A model generated the notes under the pieces. The model saw only the letters and a list, made by a program, of their open reading frames with translations. It ran no database searches and was not told the origin of the DNA. A DNA stretch of 64,000 nucleotides from positions 2,435,501 through 2,499,500 of the forward strand of contig NZ_CP007509.1 in the NCBI RefSeq assembly GCF_000661915.1. The letters are read 5' to 3'. This DNA comes from Stutzerimonas decontaminans (GTDB lineage: Bacteria; Pseudomonadota; Gammaproteobacteria; Pseudomonadales; Pseudomonadaceae). Position numbers and translations under genes: made by a program. This document shows, piece by piece, positions 30,497 through 37,891 of this stretch; position 1 is the first letter of the stretch; the number at the start of each line of letters is the position of its first letter.

Positions 30497-31615
30497 TCAA
30501 CTTGAACCCAGCGCCGGCCGATCATTGGCGTTTCGCCAGGCCAGTTCGTTGGTAATGGTCGCCATGGGGACGAACATCGTGCCGTCGAACTTGCTGAGCT
30601 CCAATCCCTGCTGAATACGCTGCGGCCAGTCGTTATTGGCCAGCGCAGCCTTGCCTATCGCGACCAGATCCATATCACCATCGACGAGTAAGCCTTCAGC
30701 CTGCTCGCCCGTGACGATGCCGCCGTTCCCAATCACCGGGATCGTGACGCAGCTCTTGGCGATCGCAGCAAAGCTCGGCCCTTCGCCGAACGCCGGTGCG
30801 GCCGCATCCGGCTCGGTGACGTGCAGATAATCGAGACCGGCATCGACCAGCGCGCGAAAACGCTGCCCGGCTTCGTCCACTCCACCTTCCCATTTCAGCT
30901 TGCTATCGCAAACCATGCTTTGGGACAGACGCATTCCAACCACGAAGTCATAACCCACCTCGGCGCGTACGGCGCGGATCACCGCCAGAGGCATATTCAG
31001 GCGCTGCAGGTAGTCGCCGCCCCACTGATCAAGTCGCTGGTTGAATTCGGCGCTGATGAATTCGTGCAACAGGTAACCATTGGCACCATGCAGCTCGACG
31101 CCGTCGAAACCGGCCTCGCGCGCGTGACGCGCAGCCTGGGCGAATCCCTGGATGGCCTCCTGGATCTCCTGTTCGCTCATTTCGGCCGGGGTCGCGTAAG
31201 GACCCTCGCCGCCGTAGAACGTCAGCTGAAACCCGCTGGGCTGCACCGCCGACGGCGCGATATGGCGGGCATGATGGATGTTGCCCTGAGTCTGGGCGCC
31301 CCCATGCATGAGCTGAGCGACGAAAGCGGCGCCCGCGTCATGAACGGCTTCGACTACCAGTCGCCAGCTATCGCGATGCGCCTCGGTGGCCAGCCCCGGT
31401 TGATTGAAGTAGCCCTGGCTGAAGGCCGTATCGGTATAGATGCCTTCGCTGATGATCAGGCCGAAACCGCCCTTGGCGAACGACGCATAGTAGTCCCGCA
31501 TCAGTTCGTTGGCGGCACCCTCGGCTTCGGCGCTGACACGGGTCATGGGCGCGACGACCGCACGGTTGCGCAGGCGCATATGTTTCAGCGTATAGGGCTC
31601 GAACAGTTGCGACAT
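30497..31615 (-). CDS. Old Yellow Enzyme family NADH:flavin oxidoreductase
   Basis: A 372-residue FMN TIM-barrel ene-reductase. N-terminal NRAVVAPMTR, active-site HGANGYLLHEFIS with the substrate-binding His, VAQLMHGGAQTQ, and the FMN phosphate segment VIGNGGIVTGEQAEGLL. It reduces activated C=C bonds; the substrate is not evident. ATG at 31615 is preceded by GAGGAAA. It lies between pqqA and exaC, separated from exaC by a terminator, so it is probably its own transcript. Confidence 0.9.
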   Translation of the reverse strand: MSQLFEPYTLKHMRLRNRAVVAPMTRVSAEAEGAANELMRDYYASFAKGGFGLIISEGIYTDTAFSQGYFNQPGLATEAHRDSWRLVVEAVHDAGAAFVAQLMHGGAQTQGNIHHARHIAPSAVQPSGFQLTFYGGEGPYATPAEMSEQEIQEAIQGFAQAARHAREAGFDGVELHGANGYLLHEFISAEFNQRLDQWGGDYLQRLNMPLAVIRAVRAEVGYDFVVGMRLSQSMVCDSKLKWEGGVDEAGQRFRALVDAGLDYLHVTEPDAAAPAFGEGPSFAAIAKSCVTIPVIGNGGIVTGEQAEGLLVDGDMDLVAIGKAALANNDWPQRIQQGLELSKFDGTMFVPMATITNELAWRNANDRPALGSS

Positions 31616-31719
31616 GGTGTTTTCCTCATCCATCCGATTAGGGGGCATGTTGATGGGAGGCGCATCAGCGGCGGGGAGTTCGATGTACGCGATGGCTGGT
31701 TCACCACCGGGCAAAAAAA

Positions 31720-31739
31720 AACGCGGCCGGGGCCGCGTT
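31720..31739 (-). terminator. Terminator downstream of exaC
   Basis: AACGCGGCC and GGCCGCGTT flank a 2-base centre; on the minus strand the stem is followed by nine T's. It ends the exaC transcript before the Old Yellow Enzyme gene. Confidence 0.88.
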
Positions 31740-31858
31740 GCGATAGGAACCTTGCGCTCGGTTCCAGGGGGATTACAGCAGAAGCGGCGCAGGTTCCTGC
31801 ACATGACGTGCATAGCAAAGTAAGCCGGCGCGCTGGAGCTAACGCGCCGGGGCCCTCA

Positions 31859-33379
<1,521 letters not shown>

Positions 33380-33789
33380 GATGGGCCTCTCTTCTTCTGC
33401 TTGTCGGAGCCTGTGCCGGAAAGTGCACAGGACATGGACCGATCTTAGGCAGCGGGGTCTTCGCTCCGGTATGCACCCATGGCAGCGGAGGACTCCTCAT
33501 TTGGTAGTAGATGGCAAGGCGCAGAGGCAGAGCTGGTGGCGGTTTGCGATTGATACGACCAGCCTGGATCGGGAGAAAAAGCCGAGCAGGATAGACCCTG
33601 GATCGCACTCTAAAAATGACGTTGAACAAGGGTGTCTGCCCAGAGCGCAAATTCTTCTGTAACGCAAGAAAAGCGCGACCAAAAGGCGGCAAAACCAACC
33701 CCAAAGTCTTATTAGCCCACCTGCCAAAGCGCCTTAGCTTCGGGGTGCGACATCGCTTTTCCCCACAACACCCAATGAGGAGATATGCC
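33380..33789. promoter_or_regulatory. Divergent control region between exaC and the second pqqA
   Basis: 410 bases without a gene. An inverted repeat CCTGTGC (33410-33416)/GCACAGG (33425-33431), 8 bases apart, lies ~30 bp before the exaC start and could be an operator or leader hairpin. GAGGAGA at 33777-33783 is the ribosome site of pqqA2. The rest shows no recognised element; both operons presumably draw promoters from here. Confidence 0.5.
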
Positions 33790-33864
33790 ATGCAGTGGAT
33801 CGATCCGGACTTCTGCGACCTGCGTCTGGGCTTCGAAGTCACCGCGTACGTCTACGTACGCTGA
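33790..33864 (+). CDS. Second PqqA-like precursor peptide
   Basis: A 24-residue peptide starting MQWIDPDFCDLRLG, with core FEVTAY and tail VYVR. The spacing Trp-x-x-Pro-x-Phe-x-Asp-x-Arg-x-Gly-Phe-Glu-Val-Thr-x-Tyr matches the canonical peptide at 30.3 kb, so the Glu and Tyr joined by PqqE are both kept. Differences are a Cys at residue 9, acidic residues near the start, and a second Tyr two residues after the core Tyr. GAGGAGA lies six bases before the ATG. It heads a rightward operon with its own PqqD and PqqE but no PqqB or PqqC. Confidence 0.9.
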   Translation: MQWIDPDFCDLRLGFEVTAYVYVR

Positions 33865-33920
33865 GCCCCTGACCGGCGTGATCGAACATCGCTTCACGCC
33901 GGTCGAGCGAGGATATGGAC

Positions 33921-34217
33921 ATGACGACAACAACAATGATTTCACCAGCCTGCCGTTACGAGATCCGCCCGCCCTTCCTCTTTCGCTGGGAAGACTCGCA
34001 GCAAGCCCACGTGCTGCTCTACCCAGAGGGCATCGTCAAGCTCAACGCCACCGGCGGCGAGATTCTGCGGCGCTGCGACGGCACGACCAGCGTCGCCGAG
34101 CTGATCGATCAGCTCGCGCTTAGCTACAACGCATCCGACGTCGACGCGATTCGCAACGGCGTCCTGAATTTCCTGGAGGTATCCCATGGCAAGGGCTGGA
34201 TCCGAGCTAAGGCTTGA
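33921..34217 (+). CDS. PqqD-like peptide chaperone, second copy
   Basis: A 98-residue RiPP recognition element, clearly paralogous to the PqqD at 28.1 kb: [34 protein letters not shown] and the helical tail. ATG 33921 is preferred because GAGGA is seven bases upstream; ATG 33915 is almost inside that site. It presumably binds the second PqqA and hands it to the second PqqE. It overlaps that gene by 32 bp. Confidence 0.92.
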   Translation: MTTTTMISPACRYEIRPPFLFRWEDSQQAHVLLYPEGIVKLNATGGEILRRCDGTTSVAELIDQLALSYNASDVDAIRNGVLNFLEVSHGKGWIRAKA

Positions 34218-35331
34218 TGGCAGCGGCAACCCGGTCTGGCTGCTGCTGGAGCTGACCTACCAGTGCCCGCTGCAGTGCGTGTTCTGCAGCAACCCGCGCA
34301 ACTTCGCCGATTACCGCCAGGACGAATTGAGCACCGCCGAGTGGATCGATGTAATGGCCCAGGCCCGTGCCATGGGCGCGATGCAGATCGGCTTCTCGGG
34401 CGGCGAGCCCACGCTGCGCAAGGATCTCGAAACGCTGGTCGCCGAGGCTGACCGCATGGGCTACTACACCAACCTGATCACCTCCGGTATTGGCCTGACC
34501 GAAGCGCGCCTGCGTGCCCTGAAGGATGCCGGGCTGCGCCACATCCAGCTCGGTTTTCAATCAACCGACCGTGAAGTGGCTCGTCAGCTGGCCGGCGTCG
34601 ATGCCCTGGAGCGCAAACTGCGCATGGCGCGGCTGATCAAGTCCATTGACTTTCCCATGGTGCTCAACGTACCGATCACTCGGCAGAACATCGCTCAGGT
34701 GCCGGAGATCATCGCGTTCGCCGTCGAGTTGGGAGTCGAGTATCTCGAACTGGCGAACGTGCAGTACTACAACTGGGCACTGCTCAACCGCGATGCGCTG
34801 ATGCCGACCCATGCCGAACTGCAGAGAGCCGAAGACGAGGTACATAACGCACGCGAGCGTTTCGGTGATCGACTGACCATCTTCTTCGTCATCCCAGACT
34901 ATTACGAAGGCCGTCCAAAGGCCTGCATGAACGGCTGGGGCACGATTCACGTCACCATCGCGCCAAACGGCAACGTGCTGCCCTGCTCCCAGGCCAGCAA
35001 CTTCAAGGACCTGACCTTCCCAAACGTGCGTCAGCAACGGCTAGAGCAGATCTGGTACGACTCGCCGGTATTCAACCTCTACCGTGGCGACGCCTGGATG
35101 CCCGAACCCTGCCGCAGCTGTGAGGATAAGGAAAAAGATTTCGGCGGCTGCCGCTGCCAGGCCCTGCTGCTGACCGGCAATGGTGCCAACACCGATCCGG
35201 CCTGCAGTAAATCTCCACATCATCAGCTGATTCGCCAGGCCGTGGCGCTGGCGCAGGAAGCTACGCGCCCGCAGGGCACGCTGATCACCCGACAGGCCAG
35301 TCAGGGGGTGGAACTTGAAACTGCCCCATGA
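34186..35331 (+). CDS. PqqE-like radical SAM/SPASM enzyme, second copy
   Basis: A 381-residue paralogue of PqqE. SAM-cluster cysteines C27, C31, C34 (TYQCPLQCVFC), FSGGEPTLRKDL, and SPASM cysteines at KACMNGW, LPCSQA, EPCRSCEDKE, FGGCRCQ and ACSKS are all retained, so it should be active and able to cross-link Glu and Tyr. Divergence from the first copy is spread through the middle (FQSTDREVARQLAG for [14 protein letters not shown]), and a 40-residue C-terminal tail differs. GGAGG is six bases before ATG. The stop region overlaps a small TTG-started gene by 17 bp. Confidence 0.93.
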   Translation: MARAGSELRLDGSGNPVWLLLELTYQCPLQCVFCSNPRNFADYRQDELSTAEWIDVMAQARAMGAMQIGFSGGEPTLRKDLETLVAEADRMGYYTNLITSGIGLTEARLRALKDAGLRHIQLGFQSTDREVARQLAGVDALERKLRMARLIKSIDFPMVLNVPITRQNIAQVPEIIAFAVELGVEYLELANVQYYNWALLNRDALMPTHAELQRAEDEVHNARERFGDRLTIFFVIPDYYEGRPKACMNGWGTIHVTIAPNGNVLPCSQASNFKDLTFPNVRQQRLEQIWYDSPVFNLYRGDAWMPEPCRSCEDKEKDFGGCRCQALLLTGNGANTDPACSKSPHHQLIRQAVALAQEATRPQGTLITRQASQGVELETAP

Positions 35332-35413
35332 CTCGTTCGGCGGCACCGTTGGCGCGGGCCTCGCGCTAACGCTTGGTTGTTACCTGCTACTGCGTTACTG
35401 GTTAGTGGGTTGA
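35315..35413 (+). CDS. 32-residue single-TM peptide in the second pqq-like operon
   Basis: Frame TTG-started, with AGGGGG six bases upstream, ending three bases before the next ATG. It encodes LKLPHDSFGGTVGAG, then a hydrophobic helix (LALTLGCYLLLRYWLVG). It overlaps the end of pqqE2 and exactly fills the gap to the membrane-protein gene, which is what an overlooked small gene looks like. It may be a small subunit of the membrane protein that follows. It could be chance, but position, ribosome site and hydrophobic profile agree. Confidence 0.6.
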   Translation: MKLPHDSFGGTVGAGLALTLGCYLLLRYWLVG

Positions 35414-35416
35414 GCC

Positions 35417-35920
35417 ATGCAGCTACCCGTTCTCGACCTGCTGGCCCGCTACGCGCACCTGCTGTTCGCGTTGGTCTGGGTCGGTCATAACTACGCCAAC
35501 TTCATCCAGAACCCGCGCTTCGTGCCACTGCAGAACGGTATCGATACCGCCACGTTGAACCGCGATCTGGAAGTGCGGATGAAACGTGAGCACGGCATCT
35601 TCCGCTACGCCTCCGTGGTCGTCTGGGTATCCGGCATGTTCATGCTCTGGCAACGCGGCTGGCTGGCTGATGCATTGCTGCTACAAGGCCCGCTGGCAGT
35701 GATCGGCCTGGGCGCCTGGATTGGCACGCTGATGCTGCTCAATCTCTGGCTGGTGCTGTGGCCGCATCAGAAAAAGCTGCTCGGCTTCGTTCCGGCGACT
35801 TTGGAAGAGCGGGTACGCTGCTCGCGGATTACCTTCCTCTCCTCGCGCAGCAACACCATTCTGTCCTTTCCCCTGCTGTTCCTGATGGCGAGTGGCGGTC
35901 ATGGCCTGCACTTCTTCTGA
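35417..35920 (+). CDS. PuuD-like (urate hydroxylase N-terminal type) membrane protein
   Basis: A 167-residue protein with four predicted membrane helices. ARYAHLLFALVWVGHNYANF with its conserved Trp and His, EHGIFRYASVVVWVSG, and LWPHQKKLLG resemble the membrane domain of the PuuD urate hydroxylase family. The cytochrome c tail of full PuuD is absent. Conserved histidines could bind heme and pass electrons to or from the membrane. It is coupled to its neighbours on both sides, so it should serve the same pathway as pqqADE2. Confidence 0.75.
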   Translation: MQLPVLDLLARYAHLLFALVWVGHNYANFIQNPRFVPLQNGIDTATLNRDLEVRMKREHGIFRYASVVVWVSGMFMLWQRGWLADALLLQGPLAVIGLGAWIGTLMLLNLWLVLWPHQKKLLGFVPATLEERVRCSRITFLSSRSNTILSFPLLFLMASGGHGLHFF

Positions 35921-37001
35921 GCGCGCCGAACGCTACAACTTCGCCTCCGGTCCGGCGATGTTGCCCAAGGAGGTGCTGGAACAGATTCGCGAGGAGCTGC
36001 CGAACTGGCGCAATACCGGCTCCTCCGTGCTTGAGCAGCCCTTCACCAGCACCGCCTTCAAGCAGCTGATGGTCGAGACCGAAGCCGACTTGCGTACATT
36101 ACTGACGATCCCCGACAACTATCGCGTGCTCTTCATGCAAGGAGGTGCCTCGGCGCAGTTCGGCCTTTTGCCGCTCAATCTACTGCGGTCAGGACAGAGT
36201 GCGGACTACTTGGAGAGCGGCCACTGGGCACGCAAGGCAATCTCCGAGGCCCGCCGTCATTCGCCAGTCAATGTCATCGCTAGTGGTACAGAACAGGCCT
36301 TCACCGCCCTGCCCCCACTGGATCATTGGCAGCTCGATCCGGCTGCCGGCTATTGCCATGTGACCAGCAACGAAACCGGTAATGGGCTGCAGCTGCAGGA
36401 GTTTCCGGAACTGTCGGTACCACTGGTGGCGGATATGACCTCCGACTTTCTCACCCGGCCGCTTCCGCTCGAACGCTTCGGCCTGATCTATGCCAGCGCG
36501 CAAAAGAATCTCGGCGTCGCCGGGCTGTGCATAGTGATAATCCGCAACGATCTTCTGCGAGCGCCCCCTCCCGGTCTGCCGACCGCGTTCAGTTATGCGG
36601 CGCAGGCCGAGCAGCAGAGCCGCTTCAACACGCCACCCACCTTCGCCCTCTACGTGACCGGGCTGATGCTGCGCTGGATGGGACGTAACGGCGGCGTTCC
36701 AGCCATGGCTGCCGCAGCTCAGCAAAGAAGTCGCCTCCTATATCGCTGCGTTGAAAACAGCGACTTCTACCTGTGTCCGCAACGCCCCGCAGACCGTTCA
36801 CCGATCAATGTCTGCTTCCAACTGACCAAGCCCGGACTGACCGAAACCTTTCTGACCGAGGCCGAGCGTAACGGCCTGGCCAATCTGCGCGGCCACGCAG
36901 CGATCGGCGGCATACGAGCCAGCCTCTACAACCCGATGCCACTGAGCGGAGTGGCGCGCCTGGTGGAATTCATGACTGATTTCGAGCGTAAGCATGGATA
37001 G
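35901..37001 (+). CDS. SerC-like PLP aminotransferase with altered substrate pocket
   Basis: A 366-residue fold-type I aminotransferase closely resembling phosphoserine aminotransferase along its whole length: YNFASGPAMLP, TSNETGNG, PLP lysine in SAQKNLG, FNTPPTFALYV and GGIRASLYN. Residues that hold the phosphate in E. coli SerC are missing: the SHR motif reads PFT (LEQPFTST), the GGGRGQF Arg is Ser (GGASAQF), and Arg after the GH pair is Ala (RGHAAIGG). The carboxylate Arg (GIRAS) remains. It should therefore transaminate a different, non-phosphorylated substrate. ATG 35901 overlaps the previous gene by 20 bp; GTG 35892 is an alternative. Confidence 0.88.
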   Translation: MACTSSERAERYNFASGPAMLPKEVLEQIREELPNWRNTGSSVLEQPFTSTAFKQLMVETEADLRTLLTIPDNYRVLFMQGGASAQFGLLPLNLLRSGQSADYLESGHWARKAISEARRHSPVNVIASGTEQAFTALPPLDHWQLDPAAGYCHVTSNETGNGLQLQEFPELSVPLVADMTSDFLTRPLPLERFGLIYASAQKNLGVAGLCIVIIRNDLLRAPPPGLPTAFSYAAQAEQQSRFNTPPTFALYVTGLMLRWMGRNGGVPAMAAAAQQRSRLLYRCVENSDFYLCPQRPADRSPINVCFQLTKPGLTETFLTEAERNGLANLRGHAAIGGIRASLYNPMPLSGVARLVEFMTDFERKHG

Positions 37002-37839
37002 AAGGCACGGCCTGCACGCTTTACGCCGCTCACTGGCACAGCAACTGTCACTGACTCTGGTCGACGTCGCCTGTCGTCTGCCGCACGCCATACCGGGTCG
37101 ACCTCTTACCGTGATGGGCCTAAACTTTCCGTCGCCGCTAGGTATCGCCGCCGGCTTTGATCGCAATGGGCGTCTTGCCCGGCGGGTGGCGGCGCTGGGA
37201 TTCGGTTTCAACGAGATCGGTAGTCTGACTGCGGATGGACTGGCGCAACTGGAGCCGATGTCACGTGGCGAGGCGCGCCTTGGAATAAACCTGACCCTGG
37301 ATGCGGGAAGCTCGGTGGCGGAGAGCTGCGCGCTGCTGCGCAACGCATGGTCCGAGGCCGACTACCTGGTACTGAACCTGATCGGCCCGGCCAGCGCACC
37401 TCTGCTCTCAAATGCCGTGCGCCTGCGCAACCTCCTGACCGCTCTCCGTGAGGAGCATCAGCAGCTGAACCTGGAGGGCAAGCGCCAGGTACCGCTGGTA
37501 GCGAAGCTACGCTGCCTGCCAAAGCAGGTTCCCTTCTTGCTAGCCAGCATGCTGCTCGACCTCAAGTTCGACGGGCTATTAGCCGCCCACGACCCAGGAC
37601 CGCCAGCTGCGCGCGAGCGCTACCGTGCCTGGCAGGACCCACAACAACAGGCACTGGCTTGTGAACAAATCGAGGGCTTGCGGCGCTTTTGCGGCCAGGG
37701 CATGGCATTGATCTCGGTGGGTGGCATCCAGACGGCGAGCCACTTGCAAGCGCGTATGGATGCCGGCGCCGAGCTGGTGCAGGTTCACACAGCACTGCTG
37801 CATCAGGGGCCGTGGCTGGCAAGCCACCTGCTCCGCTGA
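36994..37839 (+). CDS. Dihydroorotate-dehydrogenase-like flavoprotein lacking orotate-site residues
   Basis: A 281-residue FMN barrel related to class 2 PyrD: VMGLNFPSPLGIAAGFDRNG, ALGFGFNEIGSLT, and the FMN phosphate segment ISVGGIQTASHLQARMDAGAELVQVHTALL. The stretch containing the MGFNN orotate contact is missing, the NISSPNT active-site loop reads NLIGPAS (catalytic Ser to Gly, Asn to Ala), and the later ATNTT reads AAHDP. It is ~55 residues shorter than E. coli PyrD. It is thus a flavin oxidoreductase for another substrate, and not the housekeeping PyrD. It overlaps the SerC-like gene by 8 bp and is the last gene of the operon. Confidence 0.85.
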   Translation: MDRRHGLHALRRSLAQQLSLTLVDVACRLPHAIPGRPLTVMGLNFPSPLGIAAGFDRNGRLARRVAALGFGFNEIGSLTADGLAQLEPMSRGEARLGINLTLDAGSSVAESCALLRNAWSEADYLVLNLIGPASAPLLSNAVRLRNLLTALREEHQQLNLEGKRQVPLVAKLRCLPKQVPFLLASMLLDLKFDGLLAAHDPGPPAARERYRAWQDPQQQALACEQIEGLRRFCGQGMALISVGGIQTASHLQARMDAGAELVQVHTALLHQGPWLASHLLR

Positions 37840-37860: not shown

Positions 37861-37891
37861 GACAACGCCCCGGACCAGCCGGGGCGTTGTC
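37861..37891. terminator. Bidirectional terminator between the second pqq-like operon and ppiD
   Basis: GACAACGCCCCGG and CCGGGGCGTTGTC form a 13-bp stem around ACCAG. It lies between two convergent gene ends; flanking T tracts are weak on both strands. Confidence 0.75.

Follow-up and report, generated by a model that had tools for sequence, protein, structure and literature searches.

Canonical biosynthesis of pyrroloquinoline quinone (PQQ) is encoded by pqqABCDE(F/H), and two of its enzymes, PqqB and PqqC, need O2. The stretch of the Stutzerimonas decontaminans genome studied here (64,000 nucleotides, hereafter the window; contig NZ_CP007509.1, positions 2,435,501 to 2,499,500 of the forward strand) carries, next to a canonical pqq operon, a second block of seven genes at 33790..37839. 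The block shares with the canonical pathway a PqqA with a Glu-x3-Tyr motif (here PqqA2), a PqqD (PqqD2), and a PqqE (PqqE2), all over curated cut-offs. Unlike the canonical operon, it has no PqqB or PqqC and instead encodes a small membrane peptide and proteins resembling PuuD, SerC, and PyrD. In a PqqE tree of 58 rows, PqqE2 occupies one side of a branch that has support of 94/91 and appears in 95% of bootstrap trees. We infer, for product and reactions alike, that the block is an O2-independent, low-oxygen arm of PQQ biosynthesis in nitrate-breathing bacteria, and we give this reading a probability of about 0.58.

A PQQ pathway without O2 has already been published as speculation; the genome evidence presented here is new. 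The parts of Li et al. (2025; PMC12423496) on which we draw describe a pqqAED-puuD-serC-pyrD cluster in Hyphomicrobium denitrificans (Hden_0548-0553), with the same six genes as the block in the window (pqqA, pqqD, pqqE, and the puuD-, serC-, and pyrD-like genes), name as carriers Stutzerimonas stutzeri, Halomonas sulfidovorans, Methylophaga nitratireducenticrescens, Azoarcus sp. DN11, and Hyphomicrobium, and speculate that the cluster encodes the last PQQ steps without O2. They further report that transcription of Hden_0551-0553 is lower in regulator mutants, along with that of denitrification and ubiXDTUV genes, that Klebsiella and P. aeruginosa with canonical genes only make no PQQ anaerobically, and that denitrifying methylotrophs rely on a PQQ methanol dehydrogenase. 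Sections 2.7 and 2.9 of PMC12423496 make no mention of the 32-residue peptide, of genomes in which PqqA2 and PqqE2 are the sole copies, of FNR boxes, of the lost substrate residues in the SerC- and PyrD-like proteins, or of M48 and creatininase neighbors. No further publication on the cluster was found in a literature search that mostly stopped short of full texts.

Mycofactocin biosynthesis (mftABCDEF) resembles the block in combining a ribosomal peptide, a PqqD-like chaperone, a radical S-adenosylmethionine (SAM) enzyme, a flavoprotein, and a creatininase-family peptidase. We rejected a mycofactocin-like system because scores fall below the cut-offs: PqqE2 reaches 100.5 against MftC (TIGR03962; cut-off, 265) and the block's creatininase-family neighbor reaches 91.7 (MftE cut-off, 172). 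The PuuD-like protein is homologous to part of the N-terminal membrane domain of the cytochrome c urate oxidase PuuD; in the parts of PMC4562309 used here, that domain has eight helices and is fused to cytochrome c, whereas the block protein, at 167 residues, corresponds to about half of it and gave no cytochrome c match at E ≤ 1. The UbiT/UbiU/UbiV pathway is a precedent for low-oxygen replacement of O2-dependent hydroxylations (PMC12423496, in the part considered); its proteins are unrelated to those of the block, which has no U32 protein of its own.

Gene content and conservation of the block

The block comprises the following genes in the window:

33790..33864, + strand: pqqA2, precursor peptide MQWIDPDFCDLRLGFEVTAYVYVR with Glu-x3-Tyr (open reading frame [ORF], family match)
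33921..34217, + strand: pqqD2, PqqD-family peptide chaperone (ORF, family match)
34186..35331, + strand: pqqE2, radical SAM/SPASM PqqE paralogue, 55% identical to PqqE1 (family match, tree)
35315..35413, + strand: 32-residue peptide with a single transmembrane (TM) helix, TTG start, and LPH(D/E) motif (motif comparison)
35417..35920, + strand: PuuD-like four-helix membrane protein, half of Urate_ox_N, without cytochrome c domain
35901..37001, + strand: SerC-like pyridoxal phosphate (PLP) aminotransferase without phosphate site (alternative GTG start at 35892)
36994..37839, + strand: PyrD-like protein, putatively of flavin mononucleotide (FMN) type, without dihydroorotate-site motifs

These seven ORFs lie at the place and on the strand given in the original prediction, and profile matches bear out the families that it named: PqqA2 scores 40.1 bits with PF08042 (cut-off, 21.1) and 32.1 with TIGR02107 (cut-off, 20), PqqD2 84.1 with TIGR03859 (cut-off, 46), PqqE2 510.5 with TIGR02109 (cut-off, 381.35), and the PuuD-like protein 42.6 with Urate_ox_N, PF06181 (cut-off, 26.9), at profile positions 148-242 of 295 only, while the last two proteins belong to Aminotran_5/SerC and DHO_dh. 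The 32-residue peptide had no family match in the profile scan of the block ORFs. Profile scans also found no PqqB or PqqC match among the seven, as predicted, and on this ground we rejected the idea of a copy of pqqBC chemistry. From pqqD2 on, the junctions are as tight as described, with overlaps at pqqD2/pqqE2, pqqE2/peptide, PuuD/SerC, and SerC/PyrD and a gap of 3 bp between the peptide and the PuuD-like gene. The ATG at 35901 is the more likely start of the SerC-like gene, over the GTG, because a MAC(T) start is common in SerC-like relatives.

The canonical operon adjoins the block on the - strand, in the opposite orientation that had been claimed; PqqA1 and PqqD were read there, PqqB, PqqC, and PqqE1 score over cut-off, and the 646-residue ORF earlier named PqqH has no NCBIfam match at E 1e-20. 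Elsewhere among the relatives of the block proteins, the genome encodes one other PqqE (the 55% identical one) and four weaker radical SAM proteins, its own SerC (46% identical to the SerC-like protein), and its own PyrD. Between exaC and pqqA1 (window 30497-31813) lies a gene for an old-yellow-enzyme family flavoprotein, which tblastn finds in many, not all, relatives' loci.

The distribution of the block bears out the further earlier proposal that it forms a single conserved unit and has a precursor of its own. In a sample of the genus, a near-full-length PyrD-like protein occurs in 31 of 56 genomes (in one, G043, split in two pieces; G and L numbers are our handles for genomes and loci), and only remnants occur in G029 and G038. 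Among 36 neighborhoods (the window and 35 others), the block is present in 34 and reduced to remnants in 2, and PqqA2 is recognized in 33. A draw from the family matched 35 of 398 genomes, in 3 of 19 genera. The PuuD-like alignment and two short patterns were also run against 84,980 species, each represented by one genome. This wider scan yielded 68 loci, of which 62 have pqqD2-pqqE2-puuD-serC-pyrD in order, 62 have the PqqA2 motif, and 60 have both; in five of the six without full order, the missing genes fall at the end of a contig or locus, and the sixth (L138) has no pyrD-like gene. Hosts include Stutzerimonas, Pseudomonas, Billgrantia/Halomonas, Marinobacter, Motiliproteus, Sedimenticola, Methylophaga, Terasakiella, and Hyphomicrobium, and the block recurs as a unit in Gamma- and Alphaproteobacteria. 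PqqA2 is nearly unchanged across classes, and the PuuD-like protein is at least 48% identical to that of the window across 33 diverse sequences. A check of co-occurrence, suggested with the original prediction, ties the aminotransferase and the flavoprotein to pqqADE2; the two were not found mostly elsewhere without pqqADE2, as the refuting case would have required. In a further draw of 385 alphaproteobacterial genomes, 158 have a PuuD-family match at 1e-25. Eight of these (E < 1e-69; next, 1e-36) were taken as block type, and block context was examined in the six that were new; the other 150 (1e-36 or weaker) look like a different, widespread Urate_ox_N group.

The membrane pair is part of this unit. 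In 66 of the 71 loci that have both pqqE2 and puuD (reversed controls, 0/71), a TM peptide with the LP(H)(D/E) motif is encoded between the two; the motif was drawn from the same peptides on which it was counted. The peptide is absent in L109, L127, L133, L140, and L143, and most carriers have it as a seventh conserved gene. The PuuD-like protein has conserved residues H14, H24, H59, and H162, and AlphaFold2 models it confidently as a helical bundle (predicted local distance difference test score, 88) with five long helices or fewer. Its profile found nothing among solved structures at E ≤ 10.

For the SerC-like protein, residues were mapped on the genome's own SerC, in which we take H42-R43 to be the phosphate-binding His-Arg and R328 the second Arg, from their positions in the E. 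coli enzyme. The phosphate site is lost: H42 is replaced by Phe and R43 by Thr, Ser, Gly, or Ala in 71 of 71 sequences, and R328 is never Arg (Lys in 2), while the PLP Lys and Asp, the carboxylate Arg, and a tryptophan are kept in all 71. The protein scores 420 bits with TIGR01364, below the cut-off of 443.6, and 451.5 with NF003764, over the cut-off of 253. For the PyrD-like protein, mapped on the genome's own class 2 PyrD, the relevant orotate- and FMN-site motifs are presumably the RMGFNN lid, catalytic Ser174, Asn176, and NTT. Lid residues R111-N115 fall in gaps in 69-70 of 70 sequences, 17 of 70 retain Ser174, the NTT motif is replaced (N245 is not Asn in the listed residues), and the FMN-site Lys216 is kept in 70 of 70; NCBIfam scores are below cut-offs (e.g., 112.4 versus 457). 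A true SerC is ruled out by the loss of the phosphate-binding residues and a true PyrD, that is, dihydroorotate dehydrogenase, by the lost lid, catalytic Ser, and NTT. By these residues, both proteins have lost the substrate sites of their namesakes and kept the cofactor sites, which marks them as repurposed.

Some loci are reduced or unusually placed. Of an otherwise lost block, G029 retains a pyrD-like remnant (L064 6016-6213) and G038 retains pyrD- and serC-like remnants (L065 7838-8330), and in G017 (L044 7884-8951) pqqD2 and pqqE2 form one shortened 356-residue frame. The block also stands on a 45.8-kb plasmid, typed mobilizable, of Acidibrevibacterium fodinaquatile (L144 10340-14417) and on a 278-kb plasmid of Methylovirgula sp. 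HY1 (L143 10397-14341). On the latter, a Crp/Fnr-family gene lies just upstream of the block, and 3 kb upstream of the block are genes annotated cbpA/cbpB, which make up a second radical SAM peptide system (L143 6980-8559).

Sole-copy genomes and the canonical pqq genes

Outside the genus, 11 of 38 block genomes have a single PqqE match (E ≤ 1e-60). We set aside G412, with pqqC copies at contig ends, and G415, a small, incomplete metagenome-assembled genome (MAG). The nine left are five records not labelled MAG, of Motiliproteus (G409), Billgrantia campisalis (G410), Sedimenticola hydrogenitrophicus (G420 and G425), and Terasakiella brassicae (G429) and the MAGs G423, G433, G435, and G442. A DNA pattern for PqqA found one PqqA in each of the nine, after removal of extra matches to ribosomal protein S12 (RpsL), and all nine have a PQQ-alcohol dehydrogenase over cut-off (TIGR03075). 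Of 39 block genomes, 38 have a PQQ dehydrogenase match, over cut-off in 35; of 14 control genomes, 1 has such a match, below cut-off. Because PqqA2 and PqqE2 are the sole PqqA and PqqE found in nine genomes that keep PQQ-alcohol dehydrogenases, PqqA2 is probably a PQQ precursor, and to judge from gene content PqqA2 and PqqE2 most likely supply the PQQ of these genomes. These organisms may instead take up PQQ from outside. In B. campisalis, the canonical locus is found in mid-contig (L233 6967-10125) as pqqB-pqqC-ercA, with pqqA, pqqD, and pqqE gone; a gene for a NosR-like membrane protein, named by reading its sequence, lies 0.9 kb from this locus.

Within the genus, pqqC is present in 30 of 31 block carriers (the exception is 73% complete) and in 21 of 25 non-carriers; outside the genus, 41 of 46 block genomes and 5 of 6 further Alphaproteobacteria carry it. 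In these counts, G443 was placed in the genus as the same assembly as G014, and G404, G405, and G418 are G058, G074, and G108. In L104, L120, L124, L130, and L138, pqqB-pqqC directly adjoin the block. No pqqC was found in the MAGs G423 and G433, both of which keep a PQQ dehydrogenase. Because pqqC is present in nearly all block genomes, the block normally accompanies pqqBC and is no replacement. What stands of the separate pathway with a distinct product that had been predicted is the conserved unit with its own precursor, to which the aminotransferase and the flavoprotein are tied. The expectation that the block would occur in strains lacking pqqBC fails on the pqqC counts, and the distinct product is not supported, PQQ itself being the simplest product given the nine sole-copy genomes.

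Low-oxygen signature, neighbors, and control region

When upstream regions with identical last 60 bases are counted once, an exact FNR box, TTGATN4ATCAA, is found in 22 of 67 distinct pqqA2 upstreams, all 22 among the 43 outside the genus, versus 0.03 expected by shuffling. Its distance is near-constant within a lineage (-173 to -178 in Pseudomonas; -217 to -219 in the Marinobacter group). Canonical pqq upstreams have no such box in Pseudomonadaceae (0/18 at ≤2 mismatches), and in other lineages there is no exact box (0/20) and one at one mismatch (1/20). Outside the genus, nosZ is present in 39 of 52 block genomes versus 5 of 27 controls (p = 2.5e-6), the controls being block-less Pseudomonadaceae unmatched for PQQ possession. 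In 12 of 72 records, one or more of the anaerobic-ubiquinone genes ubiU, ubiV, and ubiT are found in the vicinity of the block, with UbiU, UbiV, and UbiT named over cut-off on one representative each. The FNR boxes, nosZ, and ubiUVT neighbors point to a low-oxygen route. An M48-family gene lies directly 3' of the block in 9 of the 72 records and a creatininase-family gene beside it in 6, one representative of each family having been scanned; like that for ubiU/V/T, these are raw counts with no background rate. In L204-L208, the ORF after serC is M48-like by its HExxH motif alone. Such peptidases could release the cross-linked dipeptide.

Around the operon of the window itself, three features were recorded:

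33616..33629, + strand: degenerate FNR/ANR-like site ATGACGTTGAACAA, 3 of 10 consensus positions off (aligned upstreams)
33679..33715, + strand: conserved promoter-like element (A)CCAA...AAAGTCTTATTAG (29 Pseudomonadaceae upstreams aligned)
37861..37891, no strand assigned: 13-bp hairpin between the convergent PyrD-like and PpiD-like genes, without T-run on the + strand

The first site aligns with the exact box of other Pseudomonas and is not significant alone; Stutzerimonas has a degenerate site in this position, so FNR control of the window's own operon is putative. The pattern of the promoter-like element, drawn from the same alignment, occurs once in the window and in 0 of 100 shuffles. 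At exaA, pqqA1, and exaC, no full motif is shared, and only the short (C)TACCAA recurs. The hairpin had been read as ending the run, and it is real and stable (-28.9 kcal/mol; z, -4.84). It is nevertheless a weak terminator for this operon, because the + strand has no T-run and the terminator-like sites in the window are at shuffle level (3 found versus 3.2 expected); the terminator scan scores the hairpin on the - strand only.

A proposed low-oxygen route to PQQ and its rivals

In the low-oxygen route that we propose, PqqD2 would hand PqqA2 over to PqqE2 for the usual Glu-Tyr cross-link, and the cross-linked diamino acid would be freed by a peptidase, here perhaps the S9-type ORF beside pqqE1 and elsewhere the M48 or creatininase-family proteins. 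The PuuD-type membrane protein and its 32-residue partner would replace the O2-dependent PqqB and PqqC, oxidizing the phenol ring with oxygen from water and passing electrons to the respiratory chain. The PyrD-like flavoprotein would remove hydrogen from the glutamate-derived ring, as in the conversion of dihydroorotate to orotate, and the SerC-like PLP enzyme would act on one amino-acid end of the intermediate. The pqqBC genes would be kept for aerobic growth and the block used during nitrate or N2O respiration; in S. decontaminans, it would be expressed under anoxia.

Several observations weigh against this proposal. The block rarely stands alone, pqqC co-occurring almost always, and the genomes without pqqC are MAGs whose completeness is unknown, the fragmented draft G436, and the 73%-complete genome. 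An exact FNR box is found in 0 of 24 pqqA2 upstreams of the genus, the site in the window being degenerate, and a box at ≤1 mismatch in 0 of the 6 further alphaproteobacterial loci. Within the genus, nosZ does not differ significantly between carriers (29/31) and non-carriers (18/25; p = 0.063). A PyrD-like protein was not found in L138 or L205-L209, and L204, from Alphaproteobacteria like these last, has only a 49-residue stretch. The fold matches of the PuuD-like protein are common helical bundles, including cytochrome b561, and are not diagnostic; heme or FMN binding is putative. The weak point is the aminotransferase, which is unexplained: PQQ keeps both amino nitrogens and gives it no obvious need.

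Because transamination would remove nitrogen that PQQ keeps, an alternative stays alive in which the block makes a different PQQ-related cofactor, the Glu-Tyr product being transaminated by the SerC-like enzyme and oxidized by the flavoprotein and membrane protein, for use by some quinoprotein or by the membrane protein itself. The canonical pathway has, to our knowledge, no aminotransferase, and the invariant PLP and carboxylate residues with a lost phosphate site suggest that the SerC-like enzyme has an alpha-amino-acid substrate of its own; the pqqBC genes still present in nearly all carriers also fit. We nevertheless consider a different cofactor unlikely, since in the nine genomes with only PqqA2 and PqqE2 the same precursor must serve PQQ too, and since a comparison of the flanks of 36 loci found each neighboring family in at most 6 and revealed no dedicated new enzyme partner. 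In a more specific proposal, the block makes, without O2, a PQQ congener that is deaminated or altered in some other way and that, as a new quinone cofactor, serves quinoprotein dehydrogenases in nitrate respiration; the ring oxygens of the congener would come from water via the PuuD-type protein and the 32-residue partner, and the SerC-derived aminotransferase would change the skeleton. We regard this proposal as doubtful.

The block might also be an extra, oxygen-regulated supply of cross-linked precursor that PqqB and PqqC finish to PQQ at micro-oxic conditions, with accessory work such as electron disposal or by-product salvage for the PuuD-, SerC-, and PyrD-like proteins. The pqqC counts and the loci in which pqqB-pqqC adjoin the block would suit such a role, which gives no reason for two repurposed enzymes and a membrane pair to accompany pqqADE in different classes, and two MAGs with a PQQ dehydrogenase show no pqqC; we think it improbable. 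The remnants in G029 and G038, the split pyrD-like gene of G043, and the fused pqqD2/pqqE2 frame of L044 might suggest a decaying paralogue without function of its own. This is scarcely credible for a block that is intact and ordered in 34/36 and 62/68 neighborhoods, with a PqqA2 almost unchanged across classes and a PuuD-like protein at least 48% identical to that of the window in diverse sequences, and we rejected it on that conservation.

If the low-oxygen route to PQQ is correct, it would answer how PQQ, or a congener, is finished without O2, with electrons sent to respiration. It would give a role to two repurposed enzyme families and a membrane microprotein, and with them an oxygen-free route to a quinone cofactor. 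Sole-copy genomes such as that of Billgrantia campisalis make this question directly testable.

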